A stretch of DNA of 64,000 bases from Chryseobacterium oryzae (GTDB lineage Bacteria > Bacteroidota > Bacteroidia > Flavobacteriales > Weeksellaceae): contig NZ_CP094529.1 of NCBI RefSeq assembly GCF_022811665.1, forward strand, positions 1,488,001-1,552,000. Direction: 5' to 3'. The translations under genes and the position numbers were made by a program. This document shows positions 2,950-36,413 of the stretch, in pieces. Under the pieces are notes generated by a model, which saw nothing but the letters and a program-made list of their open reading frames with translations, was not told where the DNA came from and searched no databases. Each line of letters opens with the position of its first letter. Position 1 is the first letter of the stretch.

Positions 2950-3040
2950 GAATTGACAGCAGCCCGGCTTGAGCGGAGCTCTTTTTCTTTTTTCTCAAAA
3001 AAGAAAAAAGCGGGAGCGGAAGACGGATTAGCTGCCCAAA
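2950..3040. repeat. Structured intergenic repeat, family 1, copy 1
   Basis: Outer pairing GCAGC (2959-2963) with GCTGC (3031-3035). Next is a helix CCGGCTT/AAGACGG with one G.A mismatch, then a hairpin of T-rich and A-rich arms (TTTTTCTTTTTT with AAAAAAGAAAAA). Flanks are GAATTG on the left and GGGCAGC (reverse strand) on the right, as in the other copies. It sits between the GPH symporter stop and the GH10 start. Confidence 0.8.
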
Positions 3041-3050
3041 AAAAGATCAA

Positions 3051-4505
3051 TTAATTCTCAGATTGTCTTCTTTCTTTGAGCTCCTGCTCCAATTGTATTT
3101 CCATTTTTTTGTTGATGGGATACAACAACAGCAATGCGCAAGCGATAAAAAACGGTATTGCCGGGAAAACGCTTACCAGCATCTTGGCACCGGTTGCAAC
3201 CGTTTCTGGCTGAACGACATTTGCCACACCTTCAGAAGAAATGTAGCCGTAATGCCCAATAATAGAAGAAACCAAAGAGCTACCAATGCTGAGACCCACT
3301 TTTAAACCAACCATCATCGCCGAGAAAATAATTGCTGTGGCGCGGCGGTTGTTTTTCCATTCAGAATAGTCGGCGACATCGGCAATCATCGCCCAAAGCA
3401 ATGGTGTGCTGATGCCATAGAAAAAGCCGTGCAAAATTTGGGAAAAGAACATCAAACCGACAGATTTTGGAGGGAAAAATACAAATGCCAGAACAAACAA
3501 AGTCGAAATAAACAACGATACCATAAAAGTGTCTCTTTTGCCATATTTATCTGCAAATCGTTTCGAAAATGTGATGCCGACAATCATCATAATAATGCCA
3601 CCCGCATTAAATAATCCGAAACCTGCGGAACGTGGATCTTCGCCAAAGAAATTCATCCCGATGGAACTGAAAAATCCGGTAATAGGCGAAATGAAATTCT
3701 TGAGCGAATTTTCATCCACATAATTATTAAAATAATAAACGTAAGAACCGCCCTTCATCGCCAGCGTAACGAAAATAAGTGCTGTTACCGCTAATGTAAT
3801 CAGCCATGGTTTATTTTTGCTAAGGTCTTTCAGGTCGTCTTTCAGGCTAGATTCTTGTTCCGGTTTGGGGATTACCCGCTCCTTGGTTGTTAAAAAAGTG
3901 ATAATCAACATAATCGTCCCGATGATGGCAAGCCACGTCATAACCACTTCGATTCCGGCAGCTTTGTCACCTTTTCCTGCTGATAAAATAATCGGCAACA
4001 TAAAAACCTGAACAAAAAACTGTGCAAACATCACCGCTACAAAACGATAAGACGAAATACTATTCCGTTCTCCCATATCACCCGTTATTACGCCACTTAA
4101 GGCAGAATAAGGCAAATTATTCGCAGCATAAAGCAACAGCAAAATACTGTATGTGGCAGCGGCATAAATGATTTTCCCCTGATACGAAAAATTGGGAGTA
4201 CTGAATGCAAAAAGCGCAGCTGCACCAAGCGGAACGGCAGAAAACAAAATCCAGGGACGGAACTTCCCCCATTTGGTTCTGGTTCTGTCTGCCAAAGCAC
4301 CAATCAGAGGATTGAAACCAAAACCTGCCACCAACCCTACAATCAGGGTAATAACAGATGCGGTTTCGGGCTTTAGTCCGTATATATCGGTGTAAAAGTA
4401 GGCCAAATAAGTTACCAAAGTCTGGAACACCAAGTTGGCCGCCAAATCTCCCAAACTATAACCGATTTTTTCGACTACAGATATTTTTTGAGATGGATTA
4501 TTCAT
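3051..4505 (-). CDS. GPH-family (glycoside-pentoside-hexuronide) cation symporter
   Basis: Inner-membrane sugar:cation symporter of 484 residues with about 12 hydrophobic segments. It starts with the family's typical IGYSLGDLAANLVFQ region, in which an early helix carries an acidic residue, followed by DRTRTKWGKFRPWI in the first cytoplasmic loop. Family members import melibiose, xylosides, glucuronides and pentoses. Placed between a CE20-like acetylesterase and GH10/GH43/GH67 genes, it most likely imports xylose or short xylo-oligosaccharides, consistent with the signal-less GH43 two genes downstream. The substrate is inferred from neighbours only. A gap of 37 nt separates it from the esterase gene upstream. 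The hydrophilic tail after the last helix is short and charged. Confidence 0.88.
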   Translation of the reverse strand: MNNPSQKISVVEKIGYSLGDLAANLVFQTLVTYLAYFYTDIYGLKPETASVITLIVGLVAGFGFNPLIGALADRTRTKWGKFRPWILFSAVPLGAAALFAFSTPNFSYQGKIIYAAATYSILLLLYAANNLPYSALSGVITGDMGERNSISSYRFVAVMFAQFFVQVFMLPIILSAGKGDKAAGIEVVMTWLAIIGTIMLIITFLTTKERVIPKPEQESSLKDDLKDLSKNKPWLITLAVTALIFVTLAMKGGSYVYYFNNYVDENSLKNFISPITGFFSSIGMNFFGEDPRSAGFGLFNAGGIIMMIVGITFSKRFADKYGKRDTFMVSLFISTLFVLAFVFFPPKSVGLMFFSQILHGFFYGISTPLLWAMIADVADYSEWKNNRRATAIIFSAMMVGLKVGLSIGSSLVSSIIGHYGYISSEGVANVVQPETVATGAKMLVSVFPAIPFFIACALLLLYPINKKMEIQLEQELKERRQSEN

Positions 4506-4542
4506 TTTGATGATGGATAAATGATTATTGTTAATTGATATT

Positions 4543-6459
4543 TTATTTCTCTGTGGTGAAAGGTAATGCCGGAAGTCCTGCTGTATTTTTCAGGTTTCCA
4601 TCCGGATTATCTGCCCAATCGTATCGTACAGCAGTTGGGTGAGATACAGCATCACTCCAAACTACTATGTTTTTTCCGTTTGTTTTGGCTTTTGCCCAAG
4701 ACCATTTGCCGTCAGAATTTTTGATACTGAAGCCTGTCAGCGCTCCAACTTTTGCAAAATTATCAGTTCCTGATTTGAAGGTGAGTACCACTTTATCGCC
4801 TTCCGTTTTCATGGATTGATAAACCGGTCCGTCCGCCAAAATATTTTGTCCATAAGCAATTTTCAAAGCCTGCAAAGCCAAACGGTCACCTACTGATTTT
4901 TTGTTGAGAGGATGGATATCATTCCATTCGCCCAGATCAATAGTAACGGCCAATCCGGTTTTTGGAACATCCAGCGAAACCAAACGCTGCTGATTTCTGA
5001 ATTCTGCCCAGTTGCTTTCAATCGGTTGAGATTTTGCTTCCATAAAATTAGCCAACTGAACGATTAAAAACGGCATCTCTTTCTGATTCCATTTGCTTCT
5101 CCAATCGGTAATCATCGTGGTAAGCAAATCGCGATATTCAGAAGGTTTTCCGGTATTACTTTCGCCCTGATACCAAAGTGCACCTTTGATGCTGTAATTA
5201 ATTAAAGGATTAATCATCGCATTGTACAAACCGGTTGGTTTCCAACGGATGAAGGTTGTTCCCGGCGCCATTTTTTCCATTTTAGCACCGATTTTATATT
5301 TCCATTCGGATTTTAAATCGATTTTTTGACCGTCAACTTCGAGGTAATACGGCTTATCTTTGATAAATTCTCCTCTGCCACCACCATTAGAAATCCTAAC
5401 AGCAATAACATTTTTGCCTTCTTTAAGAATCCCCGCAGGAACATCATACCAACGCGGCGGATACTCGTAGGTTACGTTGCCCACTTTCACACCATTGATG
5501 TAGGTTACATCGGCATCTTTGATTCTCCCAAGATTCAAAAATGCAGGTTTTTTTGCCTGATTTTTAGTTAAAACAATTTCTTTTCTGAACCAGACAGAAC
5601 CATCAAAAGCACCTTCTTTATCTTCCCAAGAACCAGGGATTGTCATTGTTTTCCAAGCGGAATCATCCAAATCAAAATTCTCCCAATGTTGGTTGAGTCC
5701 TAAATCGCGTTGGTCAAGCTCAGAATACCAGGCTTTACCTGCGGCTTGTTCATTAGATTCTGTGGTTTTTATCAACTCATCGCTCTGCCATTTTTTGGCT
5801 TCATCCAGATATTCGGGATACTTTTTAAGCGATTTTTCGTCCATCCAAGCCTGGATCGGAGAACCGCCCAAACTAGAATGAATGATGCCCACCGCTACTT
5901 TATTTTTTTCGCTTATTTCTTTAGCAAAAAAATACGCCACGCCAGAAAAATTAAGAATGGTTTGAGGATTGGTAGCTTCCCATTTTCCGCCATCTAGTTC
6001 TGTTTGTGGTGACTTAAAATTATATTTTTGAGGAACCGTGAAAAATCTGACGTTTTGATTATTAGCATTCTTTATTTCGTTGCTGTATAAGGGAGTCAAC
6101 CGACGCATCGGCAATTCCATATTCGATTGTCCGGAAGCGAGCCAGACATCACCAATCATAATGTCTTTCAGCGAGATTTCGTTAATGGTCATTGTGTAAG
6201 GACCACCTGCTTTTTGCTCGGGAAGTGAGATTTTCCAGTTTCCTTGCTGGTCTGCTACCGTTTTGTAGTTTTTGTTGAGAAATTTTACTTCTACCCTTTC
6301 TCCGGCATCGGCTTTGCCCCAAATGTTGAGTTTTTGGTTGCGTTGCAAAACCATCCCGTCTGAAACCAAATTGGGAAGCGTAATTTTTGCCTCGAAAAGC
6401 AGGCTGATGAATGTACAGACCAATAAAGTCAGGATTCTGGTTATGTTTTTATGATTCAT
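4543..6459 (-). CDS. SGNH acetylesterase with inserted jelly-roll domain (CE20-like, acetylxylan esterase)
   Basis: Likely removes acetyl groups from xylo-oligosaccharides. The SGNH serine S112 is in GQSNM, a second family block is WYQGESN (429-435), and the catalytic D514/H516 are in NDIHP. Between the two halves of the SGNH fold, residues about 245-400 form a beta-sandwich of the sialate O-acetylesterase type (WFRKEI, GRIKDADVTYING). This split architecture is that of sialate-esterase-like proteins and of the CE20 xylan acetylesterases. I chose the ATG at 6459, giving 638 residues and a signal peptide. The frame is open upstream to 6591, but that extra stretch is translation of intergenic repeat copy 2 and has no signal peptide. 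Linkage specificity (acetyl-xylosyl versus other) is inferred from context. Confidence 0.85.
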   Translation of the reverse strand: MNHKNITRILTLLVCTFISLLFEAKITLPNLVSDGMVLQRNQKLNIWGKADAGERVEVKFLNKNYKTVADQQGNWKISLPEQKAGGPYTMTINEISLKDIMIGDVWLASGQSNMELPMRRLTPLYSNEIKNANNQNVRFFTVPQKYNFKSPQTELDGGKWEATNPQTILNFSGVAYFFAKEISEKNKVAVGIIHSSLGGSPIQAWMDEKSLKKYPEYLDEAKKWQSDELIKTTESNEQAAGKAWYSELDQRDLGLNQHWENFDLDDSAWKTMTIPGSWEDKEGAFDGSVWFRKEIVLTKNQAKKPAFLNLGRIKDADVTYINGVKVGNVTYEYPPRWYDVPAGILKEGKNVIAVRISNGGGRGEFIKDKPYYLEVDGQKIDLKSEWKYKIGAKMEKMAPGTTFIRWKPTGLYNAMINPLINYSIKGALWYQGESNTGKPSEYRDLLTTMITDWRSKWNQKEMPFLIVQLANFMEAKSQPIESNWAEFRNQQRLVSLDVPKTGLAVTIDLGEWNDIHPLNKKSVGDRLALQALKIAYGQNILADGPVYQSMKTEGDKVVLTFKSGTDNFAKVGALTGFSIKNSDGKWSWAKAKTNGKNIVVWSDAVSHPTAVRYDWADNPDGNLKNTAGLPALPFTTEK

Positions 6460-6500
6460 TTTTTTTATTTTTAAACGGTGATTGCTAAATTTCTGAAGCC

Positions 6501-6592
6501 GAATCGCTCGCAGCCCGGCCTGAGTGGAGCTCTTTTTGTGCAGCGCAGCGGAACAAAAAAGCGGGAACGGAGGACGGATAAAGCTGCCCAAA
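6501..6592. repeat. Structured intergenic repeat, family 1, copy 2
   Basis: Same layout as the other copies: GCAGC (6510-6514) pairs with GCTGC (6583-6587). The helix is CCGGCCT/AGGACGG, and the inner hairpin has arms TTTTTGT and ACAAAAA around GCAGCGCAGCGGA-like sequence. It lies between the GH127 stop and the acetylesterase start. Confidence 0.8.
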
Positions 6593-6620
6593 ATAATTTA
6601 ACAACATAGGGGGCGATTTT

Positions 6621-8987
6621 CTATTGTGGTTCATTGGTTAGTAAGCGGATTTCGATAATTTTTGGCGTCAGAGATTTTTCTTTTGAACTGAATCTCACGT
6701 TCAGGATTTCTTTATTTTTTTCTGAATCCGGAATTGGGATCAACAAAAATTGTGGAGAAATCCCCATTTTTCCGTCGAAGTCTTTTGAGTAAACTTTCGA
6801 TCCGTTAATTTCGGCATTCAGCGTTCTGTTGTTGGTGTCGAAATATGTGATGTAGAGGTATTTTGCATTTTTATTTTTGTTCTTCATCTGGTAACTAAAC
6901 CAGCTTTTTGCCTCGCGAAAATGGCGGTCTTCCATATATCCGGTGTTAGAATCTTTGCTGTCGAAGAAATGATCGGACTCTGGTTGCTGCTCGCCCAACT
7001 GAATTTTGTCTGCGGTGATGCGCTCCAACTTTCTGATCTGTTCTTCTTCTTTGGCTTTCTGATTTTGAATAATTTGGATTTTATCTTCTGTCGCCTGAGG
7101 AAAGTAAATAATATAACGCTCTTCGTGGATTTTATAAAACGGAACAAGCTCTAACCCGTCTCCGAATTTGTTCTGAGGATACAAACCATCGAGTTTAAAA
7201 CTCAGATCATTGGCATTATTAGGCTTTAAATGAGCCAAAACAGCATCCGAATTGCCCAAAATAGTCGGGATCTCATTCAGCGGAATCTGTGGTCCGTGGG
7301 CAATATGACCGCCTCGGCTGTCATCAGCAAAAAGCCCGTCCTGATTTTGTTTTCCGTAAGTTGCTGCTAAAACAACAGGGCCGTATTTGAAGGCATAATA
7401 ATCGGAATGATCCGGAAGCTGCTCCGCAGAAAGGTGCATTGGCAGTTTTATTTCTACAACATCGCCTTTTTTCCATGGTCTGTCGAGATTAGCATAACCA
7501 TGACTGTCAATAATAAAATTAGATTTTTTGCCATTCACCAAGATAACAATTTGGTTTTTGTCGCACCAATCAGGGATACGGATTTTCAAATTGATTTTTG
7601 ATTTTGAAACGACATCAAATATTAGTTTTGTAGAAGCCGATTCGGGAAAATTATTTTCTTGCCTCAGCACTGTTTTTTTCTCTGACCATTTTAAAACAGA
7701 TGGAATGAACAGATTGACGTACAAATCGTTATCCGTATGGGCATAAATCATCTCACCATATTTGGCGTGATTTTCTAAACCCGAACCCACGCAACACCAA
7801 AAACTGGTTTCTGGCTGAGAATATACTCTGTAATGGCCGGGGCGCATCGGCGTAAAATAGACAAAACCACCTTTTTCGGGATTTTGAGTGGATAAAATAT
7901 GGTTGTACAAAGCTTTTTCGTAAAAATCTAAATAACTTGATTTTGGATTGGTAGCAAAAAGTTCTTTGGTCAGCTTCAGCATATTGTAGGTATTGCAGGT
8001 TTCTGGGCCTTCTATACTTTTTATCATTCCGCTGAAATCGTTGGTTGGGTTAAAATGCTCGCTCACACTGTTGCCGCCGATAATGGCTGAACGTTTTTGG
8101 GTAACATTATTCCAGAAAAAATCTGCCGCACTGCTCCATTCTTTGTTATGTTCTAAATCTGCAATCCTTTTGAATCCTATAACTTTCGGAATCTGTGTAT
8201 TAGCGTGGATGCCGGTGAGTTTGTCCTCATGAATCAGCAATGGGTTAAGAATCGCCAAATGAGAAAAACGCTTGGCGAGAGTTAGATATTTTTGATTTTT
8301 TGTAATATCGTACACATCCGCAAAAACCTCGTTCAGTCCGCCGTGCTCACTGCGCAACATATCCTGAATCTGAGCATCAGAAAGCTGAGAGACTTCTTGC
8401 ACCATCCAATCTGCAAGTCTAACGAGCATTTTTTTTGCTTTCGCATTGTCTGCATACCAATAAGCATCGCGCAAGCCAGCATAGATTTTATGAATATTGT
8501 ATAACGGAACCCAACGGTCATTAAGACCGAAAGTGGCTGCACGAATATCGCCTTCGGCTATTTCTTTCCAGATTTTTTTGCCATTCGGCACGCCAGAGAG
8601 ATAGCCATTTCCGGAAGCCTCCTGACAGCGTTCTAATTCGTCCACCATATAATCCAGGCGCTGTCTTATTTTTTGATCGCCTGTGGAAGCGTACATCAAC
8701 GCCAATGCTGAAAGATAATGACCGCCGATGTGCCCGTCTAATCCTGTATTTTCCCAATTCGGGTAATTCTGTTTTTTAGGATTGAGACCCGCTTCTTTGA
8801 GATAAGGCGCCAGCAAACGGTCTGCATCCATCGACATCATATAGCTCTTGTCTGTCTGCATTGCTTTGCTGAAAATACTTTCTGATAAAACCACCTTATT
8901 GAGCGGAAAATAACTGACAATTTTGGTCACCTGACCAAAAGCAAGTGTCCCAAATCCTAAGAATATTATCAGTGATTTTTTAATCAT
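6621..8987 (-). CDS. GH127 beta-L-arabinofuranosidase-type glycosidase (DUF1680)
   Basis: Retaining enzyme family that uses a zinc-bound cysteine as nucleophile; characterised members remove beta-L-arabinofuranose. The protein has 788 residues with a signal peptide ending near FGQ. An alpha/alpha-barrel runs from about 30 to 400 (NWENTGLDGHIGGHYLSA). The metal/catalytic residues are visible: E329 and C331 in GPETCNTYN and the C398-C399 pair in FWCCVGSG, with E310 as the probable acid/base. In the Bifidobacterium enzyme the matching residues are E338, C340, C417, C418 and E322. Beta-sandwich domains fill the C-terminal half. It opens the run of genes leading to GH67 and diverges from araR across 537 nt. 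Periplasmic action is inferred from the signal peptide. DUF1680 proteins vary in specificity, so the sugar released remains a family-level guess. Confidence 0.87.
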   Translation of the reverse strand: MIKKSLIIFLGFGTLAFGQVTKIVSYFPLNKVVLSESIFSKAMQTDKSYMMSMDADRLLAPYLKEAGLNPKKQNYPNWENTGLDGHIGGHYLSALALMYASTGDQKIRQRLDYMVDELERCQEASGNGYLSGVPNGKKIWKEIAEGDIRAATFGLNDRWVPLYNIHKIYAGLRDAYWYADNAKAKKMLVRLADWMVQEVSQLSDAQIQDMLRSEHGGLNEVFADVYDITKNQKYLTLAKRFSHLAILNPLLIHEDKLTGIHANTQIPKVIGFKRIADLEHNKEWSSAADFFWNNVTQKRSAIIGGNSVSEHFNPTNDFSGMIKSIEGPETCNTYNMLKLTKELFATNPKSSYLDFYEKALYNHILSTQNPEKGGFVYFTPMRPGHYRVYSQPETSFWCCVGSGLENHAKYGEMIYAHTDNDLYVNLFIPSVLKWSEKKTVLRQENNFPESASTKLIFDVVSKSKINLKIRIPDWCDKNQIVILVNGKKSNFIIDSHGYANLDRPWKKGDVVEIKLPMHLSAEQLPDHSDYYAFKYGPVVLAATYGKQNQDGLFADDSRGGHIAHGPQIPLNEIPTILGNSDAVLAHLKPNNANDLSFKLDGLYPQNKFGDGLELVPFYKIHEERYIIYFPQATEDKIQIIQNQKAKEEEQIRKLERITADKIQLGEQQPESDHFFDSKDSNTGYMEDRHFREAKSWFSYQMKNKNKNAKYLYITYFDTNNRTLNAEINGSKVYSKDFDGKMGISPQFLLIPIPDSEKNKEILNVRFSSKEKSLTPKIIEIRLLTNEPQ

Positions 8988-9036
8988 AATAAATGTAATT
9001 TCAACATTTCTAAAATAAAGGAAAGATTCTATATGG

Positions 9037-9044
9037 CAAAGAAA
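9037..9044 (-). promoter_or_regulatory. Possible -7 element of the GH127 promoter
   Basis: Minus strand TTTCTTTG, one mismatch to TAnnTTTG and followed by CC. A TTTG lies 23 nt upstream (9068-9071). It would give a leader of about 43 nt. Weak call. Confidence 0.3.
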
Positions 9045-9444
9045 TTTGGAGTTTCATTGATAGGAATCAAAAAAAAAATAATTTAATATCAACCTGAAAA
9101 AGTTAAAAACCCGGAATACTTATCATAAAAAATAAGAATACAAATAATTTAGATTATCAGACATATACACAAAAGTGACTGATATAAAAATGAATACCGT
9201 ATGAAGCGCATAATTAATTTAAAACGAAAATAAAGACTTATCGTAATTTTTATATTAAGTATGTTATTAAATTTGTGATTTATTCAAATTAGGGATAATT
9301 TCAATTTTAACATATTTTTAACATTCAATTCATTTATTTTTAATGTGAAATATTGATAGAAATTAATGATTCATCAACTTTATTGCTCCCAAAATAGTAG
9401 TACAAAGCCTGAATTGAAAAAGAAATTGAAAATAACTTTAAAAT

Positions 9445-9465
9445 AAAGTGTTTAAATTACATTTA
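9445..9465 (+). promoter_or_regulatory. Candidate AraR operator, site C (before araR)
   Basis: AAAGTGT-N7-ACATTTA, matching the inverted-repeat pattern TAARTGT-N7-ACAYTTA shared with sites at 18417, 20513, 32830 and 54296. It lies just upstream of the araR -33 region, consistent with autoregulation. Confidence 0.6.
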
Positions 9466-9476
9466 AATTTCTTTAA

Positions 9477-9509
9477 TTGATTAATAGATAGATAAAAGCA
9501 CTAACTTTG
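9477..9509 (+). promoter_or_regulatory. araR promoter (-33 TTG, -7 TAACTTTG)
   Basis: TTG at 9477-9479 and TAACTTTG at 9502-9509, spaced 22 nt, match the Bacteroidota TTG / TAnnTTTG promoter. Transcription would start near 9516, only about 9 nt before the ATG at 9525. This rules out the in-frame TTG codon at 9507, which lies inside the -7 element, as the start. Confidence 0.6.
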
Positions 9510-9524
9510 CCTAAAATATTTACG

Positions 9525-10211
9525 ATGAAACAAGACTATTCTCATTATCCACGTCATTTGGTCGCTGTAGACTGCATTATTTTCGGTTTCGATGGCGAGA
9601 ATCTGAAAATTCTTTTGGTACAAAGAAATTTTGAGCCAAAAATGGGAGAATGGTCGCTGATGGGAGGTTTTATCAATGATAACGAAACGTCTGACCAAGC
9701 TGCCAACCGTGTTCTTAATACACTAACCGGTTTAGAAAACATCTATCTGGAACAGCTTAATACTTATACAGAAATCCACCGAGAACCAACTGCCAGAATT
9801 ATGTCGATTTCGTATTACGCATTGATTAATATCGAAAAAGACATTCAAATCAATGAGAAATATAGTGCCAAATGGTATAATCTAAAAGAGCATCCAGAGC
9901 TGATTTTCGATCATAATGAAATGGTAAAAGATGCCGTTTTGAGACTCCGCCGAAGAGCTTCTACCCGACCCATCGGTTTTGAGCTATTGACGGATAAATT
10001 CACGATGAAAGATTTGCAAAATCTGTACGAAGCTATTTTTGATGAAAGCTATGACAAGCGAAATTTCACAAGCAAAATCAATGCGCTGGATATTCTCATA
10101 AAAACAGAAGAAAAAGATATGACCTCCTCCAAAAAAGGCTCTTTCTTATATCGTTTCGACGAGAAAAAATATCAGAAAAAGCTGGCAGAAGGTTTTATGT
10201 TTAAGATATAG
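9525..10211 (+). CDS. araR: NrtR-family transcriptional regulator of arabinose genes (AraR-like)
   Basis: DNA-binding regulator of 228 residues. The N-terminal two thirds form a Nudix fold (VAVDCIIFGFDGENLKILLVQR). The Nudix box is degenerate: GGFINDNETSDQAANRVLNTL lacks the REUXEE catalytic glutamates, as in NrtR regulators that sense rather than hydrolyse ligands. The C-terminal part (FELLTDKFTMKDLQNLYEAIF) is the winged helix-turn-helix. AraR of Bacteroides, the arabinose repressor, belongs to this family. Adjacency to GH127 and the ara genes, plus repeated 21-bp palindromes at ara promoters, supports the name. A paralogue (XylR) is encoded at 53.3-54.0 kb. I use the ATG at 9525. The 3' end overlaps the convergent endonuclease-fold gene by 11 nt. 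The effector, probably arabinose or a derivative, is inferred. Confidence 0.82.
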   Translation: MKQDYSHYPRHLVAVDCIIFGFDGENLKILLVQRNFEPKMGEWSLMGGFINDNETSDQAANRVLNTLTGLENIYLEQLNTYTEIHREPTARIMSISYYALINIEKDIQINEKYSAKWYNLKEHPELIFDHNEMVKDAVLRLRRRASTRPIGFELLTDKFTMKDLQNLYEAIFDESYDKRNFTSKINALDILIKTEEKDMTSSKKGSFLYRFDEKKYQKKLAEGFMFKI

Positions 10212-10875: not shown

Positions 10876-10983
10876 TTTAAATTTTATAAAAATTAAATTT
10901 ACGAACTATTTGCTAACATCAAAATAGAAGGTTATTTCTACACAGATATTTTTCTTACAGAGAAACAATTACGAATTGCGTAG

Positions 10984-11018
10984 TAAAACAAAAACAGGAC
11001 TCCAAAACGGAATCCTGT
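10984..11018 (-). terminator. Rho-independent terminator of the arabinose operon
   Basis: On the minus strand ACAGGATTCC / GGAGTCCTGT forms a 10-bp stem (one G.U) with a 5-nt loop, followed directly by a U-rich tract TTTTTGTTTT. It lies 23 nt after the symporter stop codon. Confidence 0.85.
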
Positions 11019-11041
11019 TATATTTTCATTAAAATTTAATT

Positions 11042-12769: not shown

Positions 12770-12772
12770 AGA

Positions 12773-14011: not shown

Positions 14012-14120
14012 GAATCTGTCGCAGCCCGACCTGAGTGGAGCTCTTTTGTAGTTTTTTTGGGTGGAAAAGCCGTGGCAAAAACTACAAAAAGCGGGAACGG
14101 AGGGCGGAAAAGCTGCCCAA
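14012..14120. repeat. Structured intergenic repeat, family 1, copy 3
   Basis: GCAGC (14021-14025) pairs with GCTGC (14112-14116), and the helix is CCGACCT/AGGGCGG. The inner hairpin is the longest apart from copy 4's 3' insertion: arms TTTTGTAGTTTTT and AAAAACTACAAAA around a GGTGGAAAAGCC loop. The arm sequence differs from all other copies while still pairing. It is located between araA and galM. Confidence 0.8.
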
Positions 14121-14150
14121 ATTATTATGATATTATTCGGAGATATAATA

Positions 14151-16455: not shown

Positions 16456-16508
16456 TTTTATTAATTTTTTAAATGCGAATCGCGCAAAGTTTTTTTTTCG
16501 ATTTTCCT

Positions 16509-16541
16509 AAACCTTCAAGGTTTTAAAAACCTTGAAGGTTT
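16509..16541. repeat. Nested palindrome, AAACCT family (TCA/TGA version)
   Basis: Two 16-nt arms around a single A form a perfect hairpin. Each arm is itself a palindrome (AAACCT-TCA-AGGTTT and AAACCT-TGA-AGGTTT). The same design with CAT/ATG centres occurs at 23196 and 23333. It lies in the araB-araD spacer. Confidence 0.75.
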
Positions 16542-16573
16542 GGTAAGTTCTAAAAACCTAGGTTTGCTGGATC

Positions 16574-23104: not shown

Positions 23105-23195
23105 AATCTTTATTTTAATTTGATGGAAACCTCATAGGTTTTACCTGCGGTTATTGATATTAAATCCTACGGATTCTTTAAGTTTAAATTTTTGG

Positions 23196-23228
23196 AAACC
23201 TCATAGGTTTTTGAAACCTATGAGGTTT
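23196..23228. repeat. Nested palindrome, AAACCT family (CAT/ATG version), first
   Basis: AAACCT-CAT-AGGTTT, then TTG, then AAACCT-ATG-AGGTTT. The 15-nt arms are complementary and each arm is internally palindromic. A half-copy lies at 23127-23142. Confidence 0.8.
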
Positions 23229-23332
23229 GGATATAAAATTTTAATTTCCAAAGTTTTCCATAGGTTGCACCTACAGCTATTGATATGAATCCGGCAGATT
23301 CTTTAGTTTTTAATTTTTGGAAACCTCATTGG

Positions 23333-23365
23333 AAACCTCATAGGTTTTTGAAACCTATGAGGTTT
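23333..23365. repeat. Nested palindrome, AAACCT family (CAT/ATG version), second
   Basis: Identical in sequence to the element at 23196-23228 and part of the same duplicated unit. Confidence 0.8.
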
Positions 23366-23399
23366 GGATATAGAAGCCTTCGTTTTTTTTGGTTGCGTT

Positions 23400-23539
23400 G
23401 AATTGCTCGCAGCCCGACTTGAGCGGAGCTCTTTTTGCCGAAGCAAAGCGTAGGCAAAAAAGCGGGAGCGGAAGGCATAAATGAGAAAAAAGCGAAGGCT
23501 TTTATCGAAGTTTACGAACGAAGTTCTAAGCTGCCCAAA
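23400..23539. repeat. Structured intergenic repeat, family 1, copy 4 (with 3' insertion)
   Basis: GCAGC (23409-23413) pairs with GCTGC (23530-23534). The helix strands are CCGACTT and AAGGC, but the conserved GGA after AAGGC is replaced by ATA. The inner hairpin has arms TTTTTGCC and GGCAAAAA. About 50 extra nt (23477-23528) separate the 3' helix strand from the closing GCTGC. This insertion is absent in the other four copies. Confidence 0.75.
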
Positions 23540-23547
23540 TTTCAGCC

Positions 23548-25491: not shown

Positions 25492-25493
25492 CT

Positions 25494-27027: not shown

Positions 27028-27050
27028 TTCATCCCATTATTTTCATTAAT

Positions 27051-28460: not shown

Positions 28461-28461
28461 A

Positions 28462-30486
28462 CTATTTTGTTGAGATAAATTTGTAATAAGCCACGCCGTG
28501 CGCCGGAATATCTAATGCCAAAGACTGGTTGGATGTATTGATTTTGGCGATGTCTTTCTGTCTCCAAAGGTCTCTAACCGTTTGCTTGCCGGAGATGCCC
28601 AATTGTTTAAAATCCTTGTAAGACATATTAACTTTCTCCCTTCCGAAATTGGCAAAAGCAACCGCTTTGCTACCATCTTCCAAATCCTTTACATAGATTC
28701 TGAATTCTCCAATGCTTTGTTTTACAACACCTTGTTTACCTAAAGCATCCTGATTTACGGCAATAACCTCATCATTGGTTAAAAGATTTAGGGTAAAATC
28801 ATCCAGCTTTTCTAGATCGCAACCAATGAGTAGCGGTGCAGAAAAAATACTCCAAAGACTGATGTGCAGGTATTGCTCATCTGGTTTTAGCTTGCTCTGA
28901 TGCGGATTCCCCCAACCTACAACGCCAACTACGAGCATATCCGGGTCGTTCCAGTTGCCTGGTTTGGCGTAAGGAGCCGCTTTGTCCTGAGCCAAAGCGA
29001 TGTTTTTTACGCTTGCCCAAGTATCGGTAATATCATTGGTGGTGCGCCAAGATTCTGCATTGGCATTATCGCCCCATTTCCAAACATCGCCCATCCCGTA
29101 CTGGCAAAGGTTATAAACGATATCTCTTGGTTGATTTTTAAGTAAATCGCCCATCAATTTGAAAGGTTTCACCCCTTTATCCAAATCGCCCCCACCTGAG
29201 AAATTGAGTGAAGACACTTTGTTGGCATCATTATACGGAAGTCCATCCAACACGCCGCCGTAGCTGCACCAATCGTATTTCAGATAATCGAAGCCCCATT
29301 TGGCATAGCTTTCCGCGTCCTGCTTTTCGTAGCCGTAACTCCCGGCACAACCGCCACAGGTCCAAGGTCCGGGAGAAGAATAAATCCCCGCTTTAAGTCC
29401 TAATGAATGAAAATAATCGGTAAGCCCCTTCATATCCGGGAATTTTGAATTGGTGAGAATGTATCCATTTTCATCACGCATTTTTCCTTGATACGATGGG
29501 TCTTTTCCGTCTCTGTTAAATTGCCAGGAATCATCAATATTAATATAATTCCACCCGTGATTTACCAAACCAGATTTCACCAAAGCATCAGCTGCACGCT
29601 TCACTTTATCGGCAGAAACCTCGTGTCCGAAGGCATTCCAGCTATTCCAGCCCATTGTAGGTGTCAAGGCAATTTTATCTCCACTTTCGATTTTTAATTT
29701 TTTAGAAACCGACCCCTTGGCATTTTTAGCCGACAAAACCACTTCGTATGTTCCTTTTGTATTGATATTTCCGGTGATAATGCCTGTTTGAGCATCAATT
29801 GTTAAACCTTGAGGAAGATTTTTTGCCGAAAAAGTCATCGGTCTTTCTCCTGAAGCCGCCACTCTGAAAAGGAAAGGTGAACCGGGACGAACACCATAGA
29901 CCGTTGCCGAATTTATTTTCGGTTTTGGGCCGGGTTTTGGCGTTAAAATATAAGGTTCCGAAGCAATCGGGTTAAAAGTAACCAGTTTTGCACCGTCAGC
30001 CGTCTCAAATTTGGCATTCACCCAATTGGCATGATCGTAATAGGGCCCATTTCCGCCATCGGTAACCACCAATTCTAACTGATTAACACCTTGTAAAGAA
30101 ATATTAACAGGTTTCGCCTTATCACCCAATTTCATTACGCCGCTAGACCATAGCTTCTTATTATCACCATAGATTTCGAATTCGGCGGCAGGGTTCTGAC
30201 CTTTGATTTCATCATCAATGCCCACCAAAGCAGAAAAATTCTTTACCTTACCATTGAGTTTGATAAGGATTGAACTTTCAGCATGCGTACCAAATCCTCT
30301 TTTGAAAACCTCTCCGGCAATAGTCAATGGTTTCCCATCTACCGATGTATTGATGCCAGGTTTGCCGTGTCCTTGCGTGGCAACACTCAAATCAAGCTGA
30401 TCCAGCCAGACCGTTGATTGTGCCTTGGCTATATTTCCGGAAAGCAACAAAGCTGCTCCGATTACTAAAATTTTTTGCTTCAACAT
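28462..30486 (-). CDS. GH27 alpha-galactosidase / beta-L-arabinopyranosidase with NPCBM and Ig-like domains
   Basis: The protein has 674 residues with a signal peptide ending near AKAQ. An N-terminal NPCBM-type sandwich spans about 25-165 (KRGFGTHAESSILIKLNG, DGGNGPYYDHANW). A putative-Ig (He_PIG) domain spans about 190-265 (LPQGLTIDAQTGIITGN). The GH27 barrel starts at TPTMGWNSWNAFG (275). The nucleophile is D405 (YLKYDWCSYGG) and the acid/base D485 (WRTTNDI). Disulfide-type cysteines flank GPWTCGGC. The family includes alpha-galactosidases and beta-L-arabinopyranosidases, and either fits decorated xylan. It sits between two GH43-CBM6 paralogues with gaps of 12 and 1 nt, so it is firmly in the same transcript. 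Confidence 0.92.
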   Translation of the reverse strand: MLKQKILVIGAALLLSGNIAKAQSTVWLDQLDLSVATQGHGKPGINTSVDGKPLTIAGEVFKRGFGTHAESSILIKLNGKVKNFSALVGIDDEIKGQNPAAEFEIYGDNKKLWSSGVMKLGDKAKPVNISLQGVNQLELVVTDGGNGPYYDHANWVNAKFETADGAKLVTFNPIASEPYILTPKPGPKPKINSATVYGVRPGSPFLFRVAASGERPMTFSAKNLPQGLTIDAQTGIITGNINTKGTYEVVLSAKNAKGSVSKKLKIESGDKIALTPTMGWNSWNAFGHEVSADKVKRAADALVKSGLVNHGWNYINIDDSWQFNRDGKDPSYQGKMRDENGYILTNSKFPDMKGLTDYFHSLGLKAGIYSSPGPWTCGGCAGSYGYEKQDAESYAKWGFDYLKYDWCSYGGVLDGLPYNDANKVSSLNFSGGGDLDKGVKPFKLMGDLLKNQPRDIVYNLCQYGMGDVWKWGDNANAESWRTTNDITDTWASVKNIALAQDKAAPYAKPGNWNDPDMLVVGVVGWGNPHQSKLKPDEQYLHISLWSIFSAPLLIGCDLEKLDDFTLNLLTNDEVIAVNQDALGKQGVVKQSIGEFRIYVKDLEDGSKAVAFANFGREKVNMSYKDFKQLGISGKQTVRDLWRQKDIAKINTSNQSLALDIPAHGVAYYKFISTK

Positions 30487-30498
30487 TTTTTATAACTT

Positions 30499-31878
30499 TT
30501 AATTAAATTTCCACCAATCGAAAAAGAAAAGATCTTTTTCTCCTTTAAAAACAAAATACAAATCGTGAACACCTTTGATACTTTTCATCGGTGTGTTGAT
30601 GATTTTATAAAGATCGCCCTCAGCTTTCCCGGTTACCTCAACAGTACCCAACAAAGGCCCATCAAGAGCATCCGTCCGCACTTCGATTTTCCCACCATAG
30701 AGAGAAGCCACATTCACATCCAGAGATTTTACACCTTTAGAAAAATCAACACCTTGTACTTTGAGATAATCTCCATTATTAATCGAGGTTACAATAACAC
30801 GATCTTTGATTTTCTTCCCTCTGTTATAAGGCTGATTGCGCTCCCATTCGGTGACCATTTCGGTCTTGAGGCCTTCGCTGTAAGCGATAGTTTCTGCTTC
30901 CACCTTTTGATATGGATTGATTGTTCCCACTCTTTTGGCACCTTCTGAAGTCCAAAAAGGCAATTTCTGGATCGTTCCGTCCGGGTTGTAGGTCAATTCT
31001 GTAACACTAACAGAGCGACGTTCGTAATGTTTGCTCATGGTCTGTTTCATGATATTATAATTGAAACCAAAAACATAAGATTTTCCCTTAAAATCGATAA
31101 TTCCGGGATGATTTCCGCTTGATCTTGAGTCGCCCTCCATAATGACGCCGCCATAAGTCCAGGGTCCCGTTGGCGATTTTGCCATAGCGTAGCCAATCCC
31201 TTCGGGACAACATTTGGAAGCATAAGCCATATAGTAAATTCCGTTTCGCTTCCACGCCCAAGGCCCTTCCTGATAATGAAAAGGATCTGGTTTGTCTTTT
31301 TCTTTTGCAAAAGAAGCATCTTTGGTGATTGGTCCTGCGAGAGAAATCATATCTTCGTTCAGTTTTACATACCAAAGATTCGGATTTCCCCAATAGAGAT
31401 ACGCTTGTCCGTCACCATCAATAAAAACCGTAGGATCTATATCATCCAAAGAATTTTTGATCAATGGTTTGCCTATCGGATCCGTGAAAGGACCGTACGG
31501 GCTATCCGCCACCAAAACTCCGATTCCCATATTGTTTGGCATGGGACAATAGAGATAAAATTTACCATTTCGCTCGATGCATTGTGGCGCCCAGGCTCCG
31601 TTGTCTGTATTCACCCATTTGAAATCTTTGAGGGAAGCCACCACGCCGTGATCTGTCCAGTTGACCATATCTGTTGATGTATAGAGTAGCCAGTCTTTCA
31701 TTTTGAAACCGAATGCATCGTCCTCATCATGGCTTGTATAAAGATATACCGTATCCTTATATACCATTGGTGCAGGATCTGCCGTATATTTGGTCTGGAT
31801 GATCGGATTTTGGGCAAAGGAAATCTGAGAGAATCCAACTAATGATAATAAATAAAGCTTTAATCTATTAAATTTCAT
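30499..31878 (-). CDS. GH43-CBM6 arabinoxylan-active glycosidase, paralogue 1
   Basis: The protein has 459 residues with a signal peptide ending near SFAQ. The triad is D34 (ADPAPMVY), D148 (DIDPTVF) and E204 (YQEGPW). It has an ASKCCPEGIGYA segment not seen in the other two paralogues. CBM6 spans about 325-459, with an extra basic insertion (EWERNQPYNRGKKIKDR) near residue 355. The gene lies 17 nt after the CE1-like esterase and 12 nt before GH27. Probably an exported arabinofuranosidase acting on feruloylated or arabinosylated xylan together with the esterase; this pairing is inferred from coupling only. Confidence 0.9.
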   Translation of the reverse strand: MKFNRLKLYLLSLVGFSQISFAQNPIIQTKYTADPAPMVYKDTVYLYTSHDEDDAFGFKMKDWLLYTSTDMVNWTDHGVVASLKDFKWVNTDNGAWAPQCIERNGKFYLYCPMPNNMGIGVLVADSPYGPFTDPIGKPLIKNSLDDIDPTVFIDGDGQAYLYWGNPNLWYVKLNEDMISLAGPITKDASFAKEKDKPDPFHYQEGPWAWKRNGIYYMAYASKCCPEGIGYAMAKSPTGPWTYGGVIMEGDSRSSGNHPGIIDFKGKSYVFGFNYNIMKQTMSKHYERRSVSVTELTYNPDGTIQKLPFWTSEGAKRVGTINPYQKVEAETIAYSEGLKTEMVTEWERNQPYNRGKKIKDRVIVTSINNGDYLKVQGVDFSKGVKSLDVNVASLYGGKIEVRTDALDGPLLGTVEVTGKAEGDLYKIINTPMKSIKGVHDLYFVFKGEKDLFFFDWWKFN

Positions 31879-31895
31879 AACTATAATATTTAAGA

Positions 31896-32798
<903 letters not shown>

Positions 32799-32829
32799 TT
32801 ATAATCGATTGATTATAAGTATTAATTTT

Positions 32830-32850
32830 TATTTGTATTTTTTACACTTA
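32830..32850 (-). promoter_or_regulatory. Candidate AraR operator, site D (before esterase)
   Basis: Plus-strand TATTTGT-ATTTTTT-ACACTTA: the right half-site is perfect, the left has two mismatches to TAAATGT, and the 7-nt spacing is kept. I could not find a clear TAnnTTTG next to it. Confidence 0.5.
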
Positions 32851-32861
32851 TTAATATAGAC

Positions 32862-32892
32862 AAAAAAATAATATGCCAAGCAATTATTTTTC
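32862..32892 (-). terminator. Terminator after the GH43 gene at 32.9 kb
   Basis: On the minus strand AAAATAATTGC-TTG-GCATATTATTTTTTT forms a stem with one bulged U and runs into a U-tract. It ends the transcript from the GH43 pair before the esterase unit. Confidence 0.65.
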
Positions 32893-32916
32893 TTTTTTTC
32901 AGTTTTAATCAAATCA

Positions 32917-34530
32917 TCAGTCCTTCTTCTGACTCACGCGGAAGAAATCAACATCTACAAAACCTCCTAATTCTTTGGTTGCATAATTAAAAATTGCAAA
33001 TTTAGAACCCATAAAAAATCTGCGATAATCGAATATCATTTTGTAATCTTTCGCCAATTCCGTCCAATTTTTCTGGTCGGTGCTGTAATAGAAATTTGCC
33101 AAATCTTTCCCTAAATTAAAATCGGCGTCGATACGAAAATACACTTTATCAGAACTCAACAGAATTTTCTTTTTCTCCTCAACCTTTACATCGGTTACAG
33201 CTTTGGTTTTTTCATCCAGACTGACATTATTTGTAGAAAAAATCACGAACTTCTTTGTACCTTCTTTCTTCACAGACAAAATCCCGGAATCTCCGTTGAA
33301 TGCACTGAAACCTGCCACATCACCATCTTTCATCCCTTTTAAATCCAAAGCGACTACAGCACTGGTCTTAGGACCTTCCATCCTTTGGGTTAAAGTATTG
33401 GGAGCGAGGTACAAATTATGGAGTACCCTACTGGTTTTCAGTCTTAAAAAGCCTTTTCTTTCGGATAAAGACCAGGCAGAACTGACAGGATTATGATTCC
33501 ATTGCCATTGGATTTTGAGTTTTTTATCAGAAAATTCGTCACTTTCTACTAAATGATTTTTCGGTGTAAAAGCCGGAAGCGGAATTTCTCCTGTTAACGG
33601 AACTTTTCCGTTGTCGCCCAAAACCGGCCAACCGTTTTCCCATTTTACGGGAAGGAGCAACGGAACCCGACCGACGCCGTTTCGGTCTTGAAAAATCAAT
33701 GAATACCAATTTCCGTTTTTATCATCAATCAAAGCACCTTGTCCAGCATAAGAAAACCCAAGAAAATTATCCTCAAGAATAATCTTCTTCTCATAAGGTC
33801 CGGTTACTTTATCGGCTCTGTAAACCTCTTGTCTGCGTTTCCCGCCACGCGGCCAAGAAATCATCATCATATAATATTTGCCGTCTTTTTTGATGATTTG
33901 GTTACCTTCCAGCAATCCTGTTTCGGAAGCATCTTTCTTGAAAACTTCCGTTCCATCCTGATTTCCGATAATGGTTTTAAAATCCGGACTCAGCTCAAAA
34001 ACTTTGTTAGAAGTAAAGACAAAAATCCGATCATTATCATCAAAAAGCAAAGAAGCATCGTGAAAATGTTTTGTCCTCGTAATGAGCTTCCAATTGCCTT
34101 TTTCCGGATTGTCAGATTCATAAATATAAGATTGGAAAGGCTCGTCATTCGGAGAAAACAAAACGTAATATTTCCCTTTATGATAACGGATAGATGATGC
34201 CCATTGCCCGCGCCCGTAGACCGAACCGTTCAGCAAATCATACTTAGAATTGTCATTCAGCGTATCAAAAACGTAGCTCGACATTTCCCAATGCACCAAA
34301 TCTCTAGAATGCATCACCGGAGCGCCTGGCATCAGGTGCATGGTGGTAGAAATCAGGTAAAAATCATCACCATTTCTGGTAATAGACAAATCCGGCGCAT
34401 CTGCCCAAATAATCGGGTTGGTAAAGGCTGTTTTCTGCTGTTCCGGAGAAGGATTTACCTGAGCTGAAAGTGGATTCAGCCCGATAAATCCTAAAAAAAG
34501 AGCTATATAAATTGATTGATTAGTTTTCAA
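32917..34530 (-). CDS. GH43 with C-terminal beta-sandwich domain (beta-xylosidase type), TTG start
   Basis: The protein has 537 residues. The reading frame begins with TTG at 34530: an in-frame TAG (stop of the preceding gene) lies just upstream, and no ATG precedes the signal peptide that starts at this codon and ends near LSAQ. The triad is D47 (ADAPDLSI), D158 (FHDASLLF) and E208 (LLEGNQ). The propeller ends around 335, and a concanavalin-like domain (about 345-537, ESDEFSDKKLKIQWQWNHNP) follows, as in XynB-type GH43 subfamilies. Likely releases xylose or arabinose from the ends of arabinoxylan fragments. Only 3 nt separate it from the GH43 gene upstream. Confidence 0.9.
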   Translation of the reverse strand: MKTNQSIYIALFLGFIGLNPLSAQVNPSPEQQKTAFTNPIIWADAPDLSITRNGDDFYLISTTMHLMPGAPVMHSRDLVHWEMSSYVFDTLNDNSKYDLLNGSVYGRGQWASSIRYHKGKYYVLFSPNDEPFQSYIYESDNPEKGNWKLITRTKHFHDASLLFDDNDRIFVFTSNKVFELSPDFKTIIGNQDGTEVFKKDASETGLLEGNQIIKKDGKYYMMMISWPRGGKRRQEVYRADKVTGPYEKKIILEDNFLGFSYAGQGALIDDKNGNWYSLIFQDRNGVGRVPLLLPVKWENGWPVLGDNGKVPLTGEIPLPAFTPKNHLVESDEFSDKKLKIQWQWNHNPVSSAWSLSERKGFLRLKTSRVLHNLYLAPNTLTQRMEGPKTSAVVALDLKGMKDGDVAGFSAFNGDSGILSVKKEGTKKFVIFSTNNVSLDEKTKAVTDVKVEEKKKILLSSDKVYFRIDADFNLGKDLANFYYSTDQKNWTELAKDYKMIFDYRRFFMGSKFAIFNYATKELGGFVDVDFFRVSQKKD

Positions 34531-34533
34531 AAT

Positions 34534-36249
34534 CTATGGCTTGATATCGTTAGACAACGTACTATACAATCCAATCAGACTTCCTGTGAAGCCACCTGCA
34601 ACATCTGTTGAAAGGATGTCTGCAGAAACTTTCCCACCAAGGTTTTTGGTATTTTTACCATCCAAAGCATAATTAAAACTCAGCTCATCTTTATCGCCAA
34701 CTACTTGCAGCTTGATGTTTTTCGACAGTCCGATTTTTTCGCTTGCTATGAGTTTGGATTCCCCTTTTTCCGTTCTTTCTAAAACGATGTAAAAATCTTT
34801 ATCCTTTTTTGTAATCCCGAAAACATAATTGAATTTTTCGCTTTGATAACAAGTGATTCCCGCTAATTCTTTGTTAGATTTCGGCTTGAAATCAAGTGTT
34901 ACGGAAGTTTCAAAATCTTCGTGCTGCAATCTGTGAAATAAAGCAGAAACAGGAGCTACCGCCTTGATATTGGTTTCAAAAGGAGTTACTTTAACCCCGT
35001 TTTTTGTGGCGCTGATAAAGTTTTCGCGAGGTCCGCGCATTGCAATCCATCTATAGTCGAGGTTTTTCTCTGTTAATTTATCATTAAAAGTAAAATTTCC
35101 GTTCGGGAAAAATCCGTTTTGTCCGGTCAGATTTTTTACACCTTGCGGGAGTTTCAGTTTCGGTTTCATCGGTACCAATCCGTTTTCGAAAACCGGATAC
35201 GTTCCGCTCCAATCTACAGGAAGGATGAAGGTTTCTCTACCTTTTGTCACTCTGTTATTAACATTGGGACGGATGGCTAAAAACACGCCATACCACTGTC
35301 CATTCGGACCTTCTACCAAATCGGCATGACCTGCCCAGTCCACTTTTTCTTTGCGGTCTCTCGGGAAATAACGCTGTGTGAGAATGGGATTATTTTTTGC
35401 CGGAACAAAAGGACCTTTCGGAGAATCTGCCATAAAAATCACTTCGCTGTGGTTGCCACCTGTGCCGCCTTCTGCACACATCAGGTAGTATTTTCCTTTG
35501 TATTTGTAGATATGTGGCCCTTCTATCCAAATTGGTTTTTGAGAAAGATCAACGCCGCCGTTTACAATAATCTTATCTGAACCTGCAACAACCTGGTCTT
35601 TTTCTAAATCGTAATCCCATATTTTTATCACACGATGCCCGTTATATTGTTCGGTTCCCTGAGGCGGTGCATCATTGTGTACGATATAAGCTTTGCCGTC
35701 GTCATCAAAGAAAATTGCCGGATCTATCCCATCAAAATTCAGTTTCTGAACTTCGCTCCAGCCTTTTGCAGGGTCTTTTGTTTTTACCATCATATTGCCA
35801 ACGCCGCCTGCAAATTGAGTGGTAATCATATAAAATGTATCGTTGTGCTTATTGTACTTGATGTCTGGCGCATAAATCCCTTGCGAGACACCACCTTTTT
35901 CAACTTTCAGCTGAGAAGGTCTGTCGAGAACGTGGCCTACCTGTTTCCAATTGACCAAATCTTTGGATGTAAAAATAGGAACGCCCGGAAACATTGAAAA
36001 TGAAGAGTTTACCAAATAATAATCGTCTCCTTTTTTTGTGATCGATGGATCCGGATAAGTACCTTGCAGGATGGGCGAATAGAACTCGTCTGACTTAAGA
36101 GGGTTGTCGCTGTATATTTTGTCGTTTCCTTTGTAACTAAAATCTGAGAAAGTCTGTGCTGACAAACCACTGAATGACAACAAAGCCACCGCAGCTATGA
36201 GATTGGTTTTGTTCTTAAAAAAAATCGGATTCATTGTTTTCTTTTTCAT
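34534..36249 (-). CDS. GH43 with C-terminal beta-sandwich domain (beta-xylosidase type)
   Basis: The protein has 571 residues with a signal peptide ending near LSAQ; MNPIFFK at residue 6 is an alternative start. The triad is D67 (GTYPDPSI), D176 (GIDPAIFFDDDG) and E243 (WIEGPHIYK). The sequence LVNSSFSMFPGVPIFTSKDLVNW is characteristic of XynB-like beta-xylosidases. The C-terminal domain (about 380-571) supplies the loop that closes the active site in that group. It is coupled to the next GH43 gene (3-nt gap). Family 1 repeat copy 5 lies in the 196-nt spacer upstream. Cleavage of xylose from xylo-oligosaccharides is the most probable reaction. Confidence 0.9.
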   Translation of the reverse strand: MKKKTMNPIFFKNKTNLIAAVALLSFSGLSAQTFSDFSYKGNDKIYSDNPLKSDEFYSPILQGTYPDPSITKKGDDYYLVNSSFSMFPGVPIFTSKDLVNWKQVGHVLDRPSQLKVEKGGVSQGIYAPDIKYNKHNDTFYMITTQFAGGVGNMMVKTKDPAKGWSEVQKLNFDGIDPAIFFDDDGKAYIVHNDAPPQGTEQYNGHRVIKIWDYDLEKDQVVAGSDKIIVNGGVDLSQKPIWIEGPHIYKYKGKYYLMCAEGGTGGNHSEVIFMADSPKGPFVPAKNNPILTQRYFPRDRKEKVDWAGHADLVEGPNGQWYGVFLAIRPNVNNRVTKGRETFILPVDWSGTYPVFENGLVPMKPKLKLPQGVKNLTGQNGFFPNGNFTFNDKLTEKNLDYRWIAMRGPRENFISATKNGVKVTPFETNIKAVAPVSALFHRLQHEDFETSVTLDFKPKSNKELAGITCYQSEKFNYVFGITKKDKDFYIVLERTEKGESKLIASEKIGLSKNIKLQVVGDKDELSFNYALDGKNTKNLGGKVSADILSTDVAGGFTGSLIGLYSTLSNDIKP

Positions 36250-36319
36250 ATATATTTTATTTCTATTTTTAAACTATTATTTGTTGAGTTTTTTAGTTAT
36301 CTATCGTCATTAGTACGGC

Positions 36320-36413
36320 GAATTGCACGCAGCCCGACCTGAGTGGAGCTCTTTTTGCCGCAGCGTAGCGGAGGCAAAAAAGCGGGAACGGAGGGCGGAT
36401 AAAGCTGCCCAAA
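36320..36413. repeat. Structured intergenic repeat, family 1, copy 5
   Basis: GCAGC (36329-36333) pairs with GCTGC (36404-36408). The helix is CCGACCT/AGGGCGG. The inner hairpin has arms TTTTTGCC and GGCAAAAA around a GCAGCGTAGCGGA loop. It lies between the GH95 and GH43 genes and is the most regular copy. Confidence 0.82.

Follow-up and report, generated by a model that had tools for sequence, protein, structure and literature searches.

Flavo-1 (RF01705 in Rfam) is the closest described relative of the element considered here. The accessible part of the 2010 paper that lists it treats Flavo-1 as probably an RNA and not cis-regulatory, and also weighs single-stranded DNA for another motif, STAXI, arguing against it from UUCG loops (PMC2864571). 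A 2022 review, as far as its text was available, names Flavo-1 in a section on the most abundant bacterial small RNA families (PMC9029176). Excerpts of a study of Flavobacterium psychrophilum report that several 5′ transcribed regions coincide with Flavo-1 matches, that such matches lie on either strand of transcribed regions, and that many fall outside them (PMC9723704); on the expression of Flavo-1 as RNA, these published data are ambiguous. No proposal of a DNA element was found in the accessible portions of the Flavo-1 literature. Titles and abstract openings on repetitive extragenic palindromic (REP) sequences, palindromes, and strand bias in these bacteria, among which subscription journals are poorly covered, contained nothing on the element family, and the visible portion of PMC12306157 includes Flavobacterium only as rows in a REP table. 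Here, we analyze a 64,000-nucleotide stretch of the Chryseobacterium oryzae genome (contig NZ_CP094529.1, positions 1,488,001 to 1,552,000; hereafter the window), which carries five copies of an intergenic palindromic repeat related to Flavo-1.

These five copies are probably a non-autonomous dispersed DNA element whose active form is a folded strand and whose cores are spread by exchange between copies. The family would comprise elements of approximately 75 to 140 bases, one strand of which is predicted to fold into a long imperfect hairpin with an outer stem, an A-rich bulge, a CCG/CGG helix, an A.G mismatch that swaps sides, and short pairs between GA-rich internal loops, followed at the tip by what is usually a T/A stem and then an exchangeable apical core. 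A first-pass annotation had placed the five copies in the window, and direct reading of the sequence finds all of them there on the plus strand, in intergenic spacers flanked by long open reading frames on the minus strand. The layout is Y/A-GCAGC-CCG-R-C-Y-T-GA-GY-GGA-GC-TC-TTTT(T)-[core]-AAAAA(A)-GC-GGGA-RC-GG-A-R-G-R-CGG-(A-rich, 4-5)-GCTGC-C-CAAA, from which copy 4 deviates after the right arm: approximately 46 additional bases, missing from its orthologue in genome G009, break this arm ahead of the distal GCTGCCC. Exact matches to the left motif TGAGYGGAGCTC in the window are confined to the five copies, and with up to two mismatches there are 7 matches against 3.95 expected, a number reached in 9 of 100 shuffles and not significant. 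The right motif AGCGGGARCGGARGRC is likewise exact at the five copies, and with up to three mismatches its 5 matches (0.91 expected) are reached in none of 100 shuffles.

Copies elsewhere were collected with an exact pattern and with a model, R1, built from an alignment (A2) of 86 rows in which a perfect outer stem was required and to which copy 3 was added; counts for the outer helix from A2 are circular and were not relied on, because its rows had been chosen for that stem. Two further alignments, A3 and A4, were collected with R1 and thus depend on A2. At E ≤0.01, R1 detects the five copies and nothing else in the window, four of the five belonging to its training set. The exact pattern occurs in at least 120 loci of Chryseobacterium, Epilithonimonas, Kaistella, Halpernia, Soonwooa, Amniculibacterium, Flavobacterium, and unnamed Bacteroidetes; of the 125 matches listed, 121 belong to those loci and 4 to the window, and copy 3, added by hand, makes 126. 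Among the 126, 22 are non-standard, 11 of them without a perfectly paired outer stem; 100 were used in counts, and some later counts use a set of 99 obtained with slightly different filters. Whole-genome scans scored the best 150 of several thousand candidates (the best 44 in a survey of 100 genomes), and the resulting counts are lower bounds. The genome of C. oryzae has at least 16 R1 matches at E < 1e-6, at least 78 are listed in G171 (the genome of the Epilithonimonas hungarica locus L130) and at least 60 in G125, and a match is present in 48 of 100 genomes sampled from the family of the window and in 17 of 33 genera.

The first-pass annotation had raised a possible match to Flavo-1, and the copies are indeed distantly related to it. 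At Rfam gathering cut-offs the window contains no match; under relaxed thresholds copy 1 aligns to the whole Flavo-1 model (positions 1-76 of 76, with one non-standard pair), scoring 30.1 bits where the cut-off is 42; copies 2-5 are unreported up to E = 10. In the C. oryzae genome, 8 places score above the Flavo-1 cut-off and a further 10 at 29-39 bits among the best 150 of 877 candidates scored. Both types have an outer stem, an A-rich 3′ bulge, CCG/CGG, the purine mismatch, GC pairs between GA-rich loops, a T/A stem, a variable core, and a tail CC(A/T)AA. The window type, however, scores below the Rfam cut-off and has the outer stem GCAGC/GCTGC instead of TAGCCC../..GCTCC and the middle module AGCTC/GCGGG instead of CATCC/GATAC; it is a sister subfamily of Flavo-1 and, by Rfam's own criterion, not a member. 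Since some copies in the same genome score with both models (e.g., L012/L192, 34.6 bits with Flavo-1 and 79.8 bits with R1), the two types suggest one superfamily with mixed modules.

The two covarying pyrimidine-purine pairs described by the first-pass annotation are present (C-G at 2974/3016 and T-A at 2969/3021 in copy 1), and the copies are not explained by two recent parent sequences, because all four combinations of the linked pairs occur among 99 copies (C/T 50, T/T 32, T/C 13, C/C 3, and C/A 1). The third site that had been assigned to the same helix, 2967/3023, does vary next to CCG/CGG, but it is a purine-purine mismatch that swaps sides and not a base pair (A.G 79, G.A 19, and T.G 1 among 99 copies). 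Covariation is borne out by model-found copies, which contain 225 two-sided cells, compared with 63.7 after shuffling and at most 29 with slid partners; this agrees with a real family sharing a helix with two-sided changes and an exchangeable inner hairpin. In 72 G171 loci with 74 R1 matches, 73 of them distinct, 97.2% of cells are paired and 17 of 22 pairs change on both sides, the former value leaning towards structure because the alignment was fitted to it. Two other parts of the original description did not hold. The copies had been called RNA-like, but the outer helix has no preference for G.U over A.C and the copies are oriented relative to replication; and the co-changes had been taken as direct evidence of selection on structure, but part of them are blocks in which whole cores and adjoining arms were exchanged at orthologous sites, and therefore not all two-sided states are independent compensatory mutations.

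If the helix were a folded RNA, G.U would be expected to be far commoner than A.C. Each occurs 14 times in 1863 cells (15 outer pairs of the G171 and G125 copies), and the outer helix thus shows no RNA-type wobble tolerance. As a control, the acceptor and T stems of 32 distinct tRNAs in the fetched loci have G.U in 38 of 381 standard pairs, and 3 of 384 cells are not standard pairs. The fitted alignments of the element would, if anything, favor G.U. The ratio of two-sided to one-sided changes (160 to 9 in the element, 151 to 24 in tRNA) gives no sharp separation. One strand is still singled out, because the GA-rich strand is predicted to be more stable by approximately 3 kcal/mol with RNA and DNA parameters alike, its complement being less stable in 64 of 73 comparisons with RNA and 68 of 73 with DNA parameters. 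Folds predicted with RNA parameters have triloops in 76 of 141 apical loops, with 28 C(GNA)G, 1 GNRA, and no UNCG. GNA-type triloops are less favored in RNA. They are extraordinarily stable DNA minihairpins according to the title of Yoshizawa 1997, cited in PMC6479982, and the available parts of two papers describe GNA loops as exceptionally stable in DNA and present in Streptomyces telomere palindromes (PMC6479982, PMC7205883). The 5′ flank has no strong conservation: there is a weak T-rich stretch, a partial GAAT is found in 29 of 99 copies (11 in a control window), and constraint is limited to position -1, where 95 of 100 copies have C or T, positions -2 to -4 being mixed.

There is a preference for the folding strand to coincide with the leading-strand template and with the strand from which neighboring genes are transcribed; its complement is the strand that replication forks and transcription bubbles expose. 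Neighbors on both sides were available for 106 of the 125 pattern matches, 102 of which are outside reading frames; among these 102, the copies between codirectional genes are antisense to both in 63 of 76 cases (p = 5e-9), and in G171 and G125 together the proportion is 65 of 80. Fork direction was taken from the GC skew of spaced samples. By this measure, 53 of 62 G171 copies have their folding strand opposite the leading one (72 of the 78 listed matches were fetched, 62 of them on contigs with assignable fork direction), as do 38 of the 50 G125 copies with context (50 of 60 listed matches were fetched; 43 of 60 overall in a by-eye count) and 24 of 30 copies of the C. oryzae genome, R1 and Flavo-1 matches pooled. 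Replication and transcription each appear to bias the orientation, since the rule is followed by 52 of 55 copies between codirectional genes on the leading strand and 12 of 25 between such genes on the lagging strand, and 27 of 32 copies between divergent or convergent genes are opposite to the leading strand (p = 1e-4).

Cores, sometimes together with arms, have been replaced as blocks at orthologous sites. At the L273 site, the 3′ flank is common to five species, among which the core occurs in four types, each with arms to match. L271 and its orthologue in G067 have flanks approximately 94% identical and the same 5′ and 3′ borders, and differ in the middle module and core, the arm pairs being changed to match; at L265, the copy in G112 has a different core and additional right-arm sequence. 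Among 40 orthologous pairs, not all of which are independent, 9 pairs, representing 6 sites, have at most one difference in 39 arm positions together with a core identity below 70%, and many others retain the same core. Five G171 copies share an insertion of approximately 28 bases in the right arm and have different cores. These results together indicate that cores, with or without arms, move as blocks between copies, for which short-tract exchange with the arms as homology would be the most economical mechanism. Across the orthologous pairs, 115 of 1560 arm positions differ, compared with 476 of 2879 ungapped flank positions; this difference is not used as evidence of purifying selection, because the copies were selected by arm sequence.

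Two further observations concern the cores. Fourteen G171 copies (L348, L350-L356, L358, L360, L362, L366, L371, and L372; near position 1501) have ..TGC / TGCAAAAAA-type arms in common and interiors of approximately 38 bases that are all different, with a shared TTCTATT-like center. In addition, some cores (L250, 14776-14883, and L330, L332, L335, L336, and L359) resemble other palindromes (CCTGAGC..GTCGAAGG; GTCATTGCGA..TCGCAATGAC and variants) nested within the hairpin, which are presumably dispersed repeats elsewhere.

A site that holds a copy in one species can be empty in another. Copy 3 is absent from all 11 same-genus relatives, where the spacer is approximately 15-40 bases (12 of 13 araA loci were read including our own, L232-L243; L244, from another family, was left out). 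Copy 1 is present in G004 and absent in G009 and G013, copy 2 is absent in all three, copy 4 is present in G009 and G004 with no syntenic site matched in G013, and copy 5 is absent in G009, the fetched stretches of G004 and G013 giving no match. Fourteen G171 sites were queried in five genomes, and L253, L271, L265, L273, and L324 were aligned (L417 and L421 were left out). Within the genus to which G125 and related genomes belong, L253 has no counterpart in four relatives, the site being empty in G095 and G067 and holding different repeat-like sequences in G112 and G125; the L265 site is empty in G095 and G067, and the L271 site in G125. At the empty sites, additional short changes on the 5′ side obscure the junctions. 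The L253 site itself (G171 C5 1133765; L380, L381, L383, and L405) looks like a hotspot, with different repeats in one spacer.

According to the reading as a dispersed DNA element, the copies would act as folded DNA and spread via single-stranded intermediates or a putative trans-acting recombinase, cores would be traded by short-tract exchange with the conserved arms as homology, and the orientation may come from selection against folding where the strand is exposed or from insertion polarity. A more specific version is possible, if doubtful: a mobile hairpin DNA that keeps its address and arms and trades its core when folded single-stranded copies of one polarity anneal to the lagging-strand template at the fork, Flavo-1 and its kin then not being RNAs. 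Such annealing would explain why copies are oriented to the leading template, why cores are exchanged along with the arms next to them, why pairing is strand-symmetric, and why no linked gene is seen. Several results weigh against reading the copies as such an element. No mobilizing enzyme was found for it, no target-site duplication or sharp junction is readable in the aligned empty sites with their blurred junctions, and there is no exact-pattern copy in viral contigs and no blastn match, with one copy as the query, in plasmid or phage records. Some sites are not polymorphic, L273 and L324 retaining a copy or remnant in all four relatives aligned, and the orientation rule is not absolute, as the copies between lagging-strand genes show. 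The wobble argument is partly weakened by core exchange, which spreads paired states together, so that the count speaks mainly of recent single changes and rests on 28 cells. Finally, the triloop counts are those of predicted folds, and DNA parameters give 53 triloops in 138 loops, with 21 C(GNA)G.

The copies are unlikely to be true RNAs, whether non-coding or cis-regulatory, in the way Rfam classifies Flavo-1; in that case internal loops would form a protein- or ligand-binding scaffold with a variable apical hairpin. Such RNAs would account for the covarying helix, the end-to-end alignment of Flavo-1 with copy 1, the greater predicted stability of the GA-rich strand as RNA in most copies, and the overlap of several F. 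psychrophilum transcribed regions with Flavo-1 matches; however, G.U is no commoner than A.C, presence varies between species at some sites, the copies are mostly antisense to codirectional genes and oriented with replication, the 5′ flank is not strongly conserved, and many of the F. psychrophilum matches lie outside transcribed regions in the accessible part of that study (PMC9723704). A plain RNA gene was rejected on the parity of G.U and A.C, the replication-linked orientation, and the wholesale replacement of cores between outer arms that are retained at orthologous sites, as well as on site differences between species. Still less probable are host-maintained 3′-end hairpins that protect or insulate messenger RNAs, with the complement as the functional strand just past stop codons. 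The 3′ end does lie a median of 27 bases from the neighboring stop codon (63 copies with codirectional antisense neighbors), but the complement is the strand predicted to be less stable with either parameter set, no T-run follows the hairpin in the copies read, 12 of 102 copies are between divergent genes, and the same gene pair occurs with or without a copy depending on the species. An intrinsic terminator was also rejected, because neither strand of the copies read has a T-run past the hairpin. Bridge RNA, retron, and H/ACA-like guide roles for the variable core were considered as ideas and set aside.

REP-like elements moved by a Y1 single-strand transposase, of the REP-associated tyrosine transposase (RAYT) or IS200 type, are just as improbable as 3′-end hairpins. 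In general terms, a single-strand mechanism would be in keeping with a folded strand and with an orientation linked to replication, and across the same 100 genomes the element and Y1_Tnp occur together in 40, the element alone in 8, Y1 alone in 15, and neither in 37 (Fisher p = 3e-8, uncorrected for kinship). Nevertheless, none of 50 Y1 loci (30 from the genus of the window and 20 from nine element-rich genomes, a sample of the Y1 genes of those genomes) carries a copy within approximately 1.5 kb with R1 at E ≤1, the hairpin has no conserved 5′ tetranucleotide, and Y1 matches are lacking in genomes with 28, 34, and at least 44 element matches as well as in that of C. oryzae. The strand preference of IS608 is also opposite to a GA-rich strand on the leading-strand template, which counts against a Y1 enzyme. 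Clustering of 883 predicted proteins from the at least 120 loci gave a largest cluster of 8 proteins in 6 loci and a widest one in 7 of 120 loci, and a linked gene family was rejected, no family occurring in more than 7 of these loci. No recurrent family that could be an autonomous partner transposon stands beside copies in these loci, whole genomes not having been searched for one. A phage or plasmid origin was rejected on the absence of exact-pattern matches in viral contigs and of blastn matches to one copy in plasmid or phage records.

Coordinates and features of the five copies in the window
Copy	Position	Strand	Scores	Features
1	2958..3041	+	R1 92.8 bits; Flavo-1 30.1 bits over 2957-3032	Outer stem GCAGC/GCTGC; arms CCGGCTTGAGC / GAGCGGAAGACGG; core CTTTTTT..AAAAAAG; tail CCAAA
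2	6509..6593	+	R1 97.6 bits	Core GTGCAGCGCAGCGGAAC; C(GCA)G triloop by eye
3	14020..14122	+	R1 81.0 bits	Long core; spacer between araA and aldose epimerase gene
4	23408..23541	+	R1 57.0 bits for 23408-23490	Interrupted right arm
5	36328..36414	+	R1 99.0 bits (top score in window)	Core GCCGCAGCGTAGCGGAGGC; C(GTA)G triloop by eye

Ten reading frames neighboring the copies contain GH10, GH43, GH95, GH97, GH115, GH127, esterase, and sugar-transporter domains, L-arabinose isomerase, and aldose epimerase, and on account of these the region looks like a xylan/arabinan utilization locus. The element is not specific to it, since further copies are located outside this sugar-degradation region in the same genome. 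The spacer ahead of copy 4 (23120-23370) has several copies of another palindromic repeat (AACCTCATAGG..CCTATGAGGTT), and a similar sequence adjoins the orthologous copy-4 sites in G009 and G004. A weak match at 16491-16558 to mir-9449, a eukaryotic microRNA family (32.8 bits against a cut-off of 100), is most likely due to chance.

If the family is a DNA element, RNA annotations of Flavo-1 would need revision, and it would have been shown that covariation alone does not prove RNA. Comparing G.U with A.C would provide a simple test for other orphan structured RNAs, and core exchange at fixed addresses would record, in nature, how dispersed repeats exchange short tracts.

Beyond Flavo-1, the element resembles REP sequences and bacterial interspersed mosaic elements, as these are generally described, in being short, dispersed, intergenic, palindromic, and non-coding, with exchangeable modules. 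A tag, for example GTAG or CGTC, is found in REPs according to the part of the source available (PMC3733652). The element, in contrast, has a longer hairpin, no conserved 5′ tetranucleotide, an orientation tied to replication, and no copies beside the Y1 genes examined. Miniature inverted-repeat transposable elements are non-autonomous, with inverted ends and many copies. The element matches this general definition, but it is one hairpin and not two separated terminal repeats, and neither an autonomous partner (in the clustered loci) nor a target-site duplication (in the aligned empty sites, with their blurred junctions) was seen. Integron attC sites fold as imperfect single-strand hairpins in which conserved arms flank a variable tip. 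Although the copies read lack RYYYAAC-type ends and the genes of the window have no cassette arrangement, the element, compared by description only, shares with attC a hairpin of conserved arms around a variable apical part.

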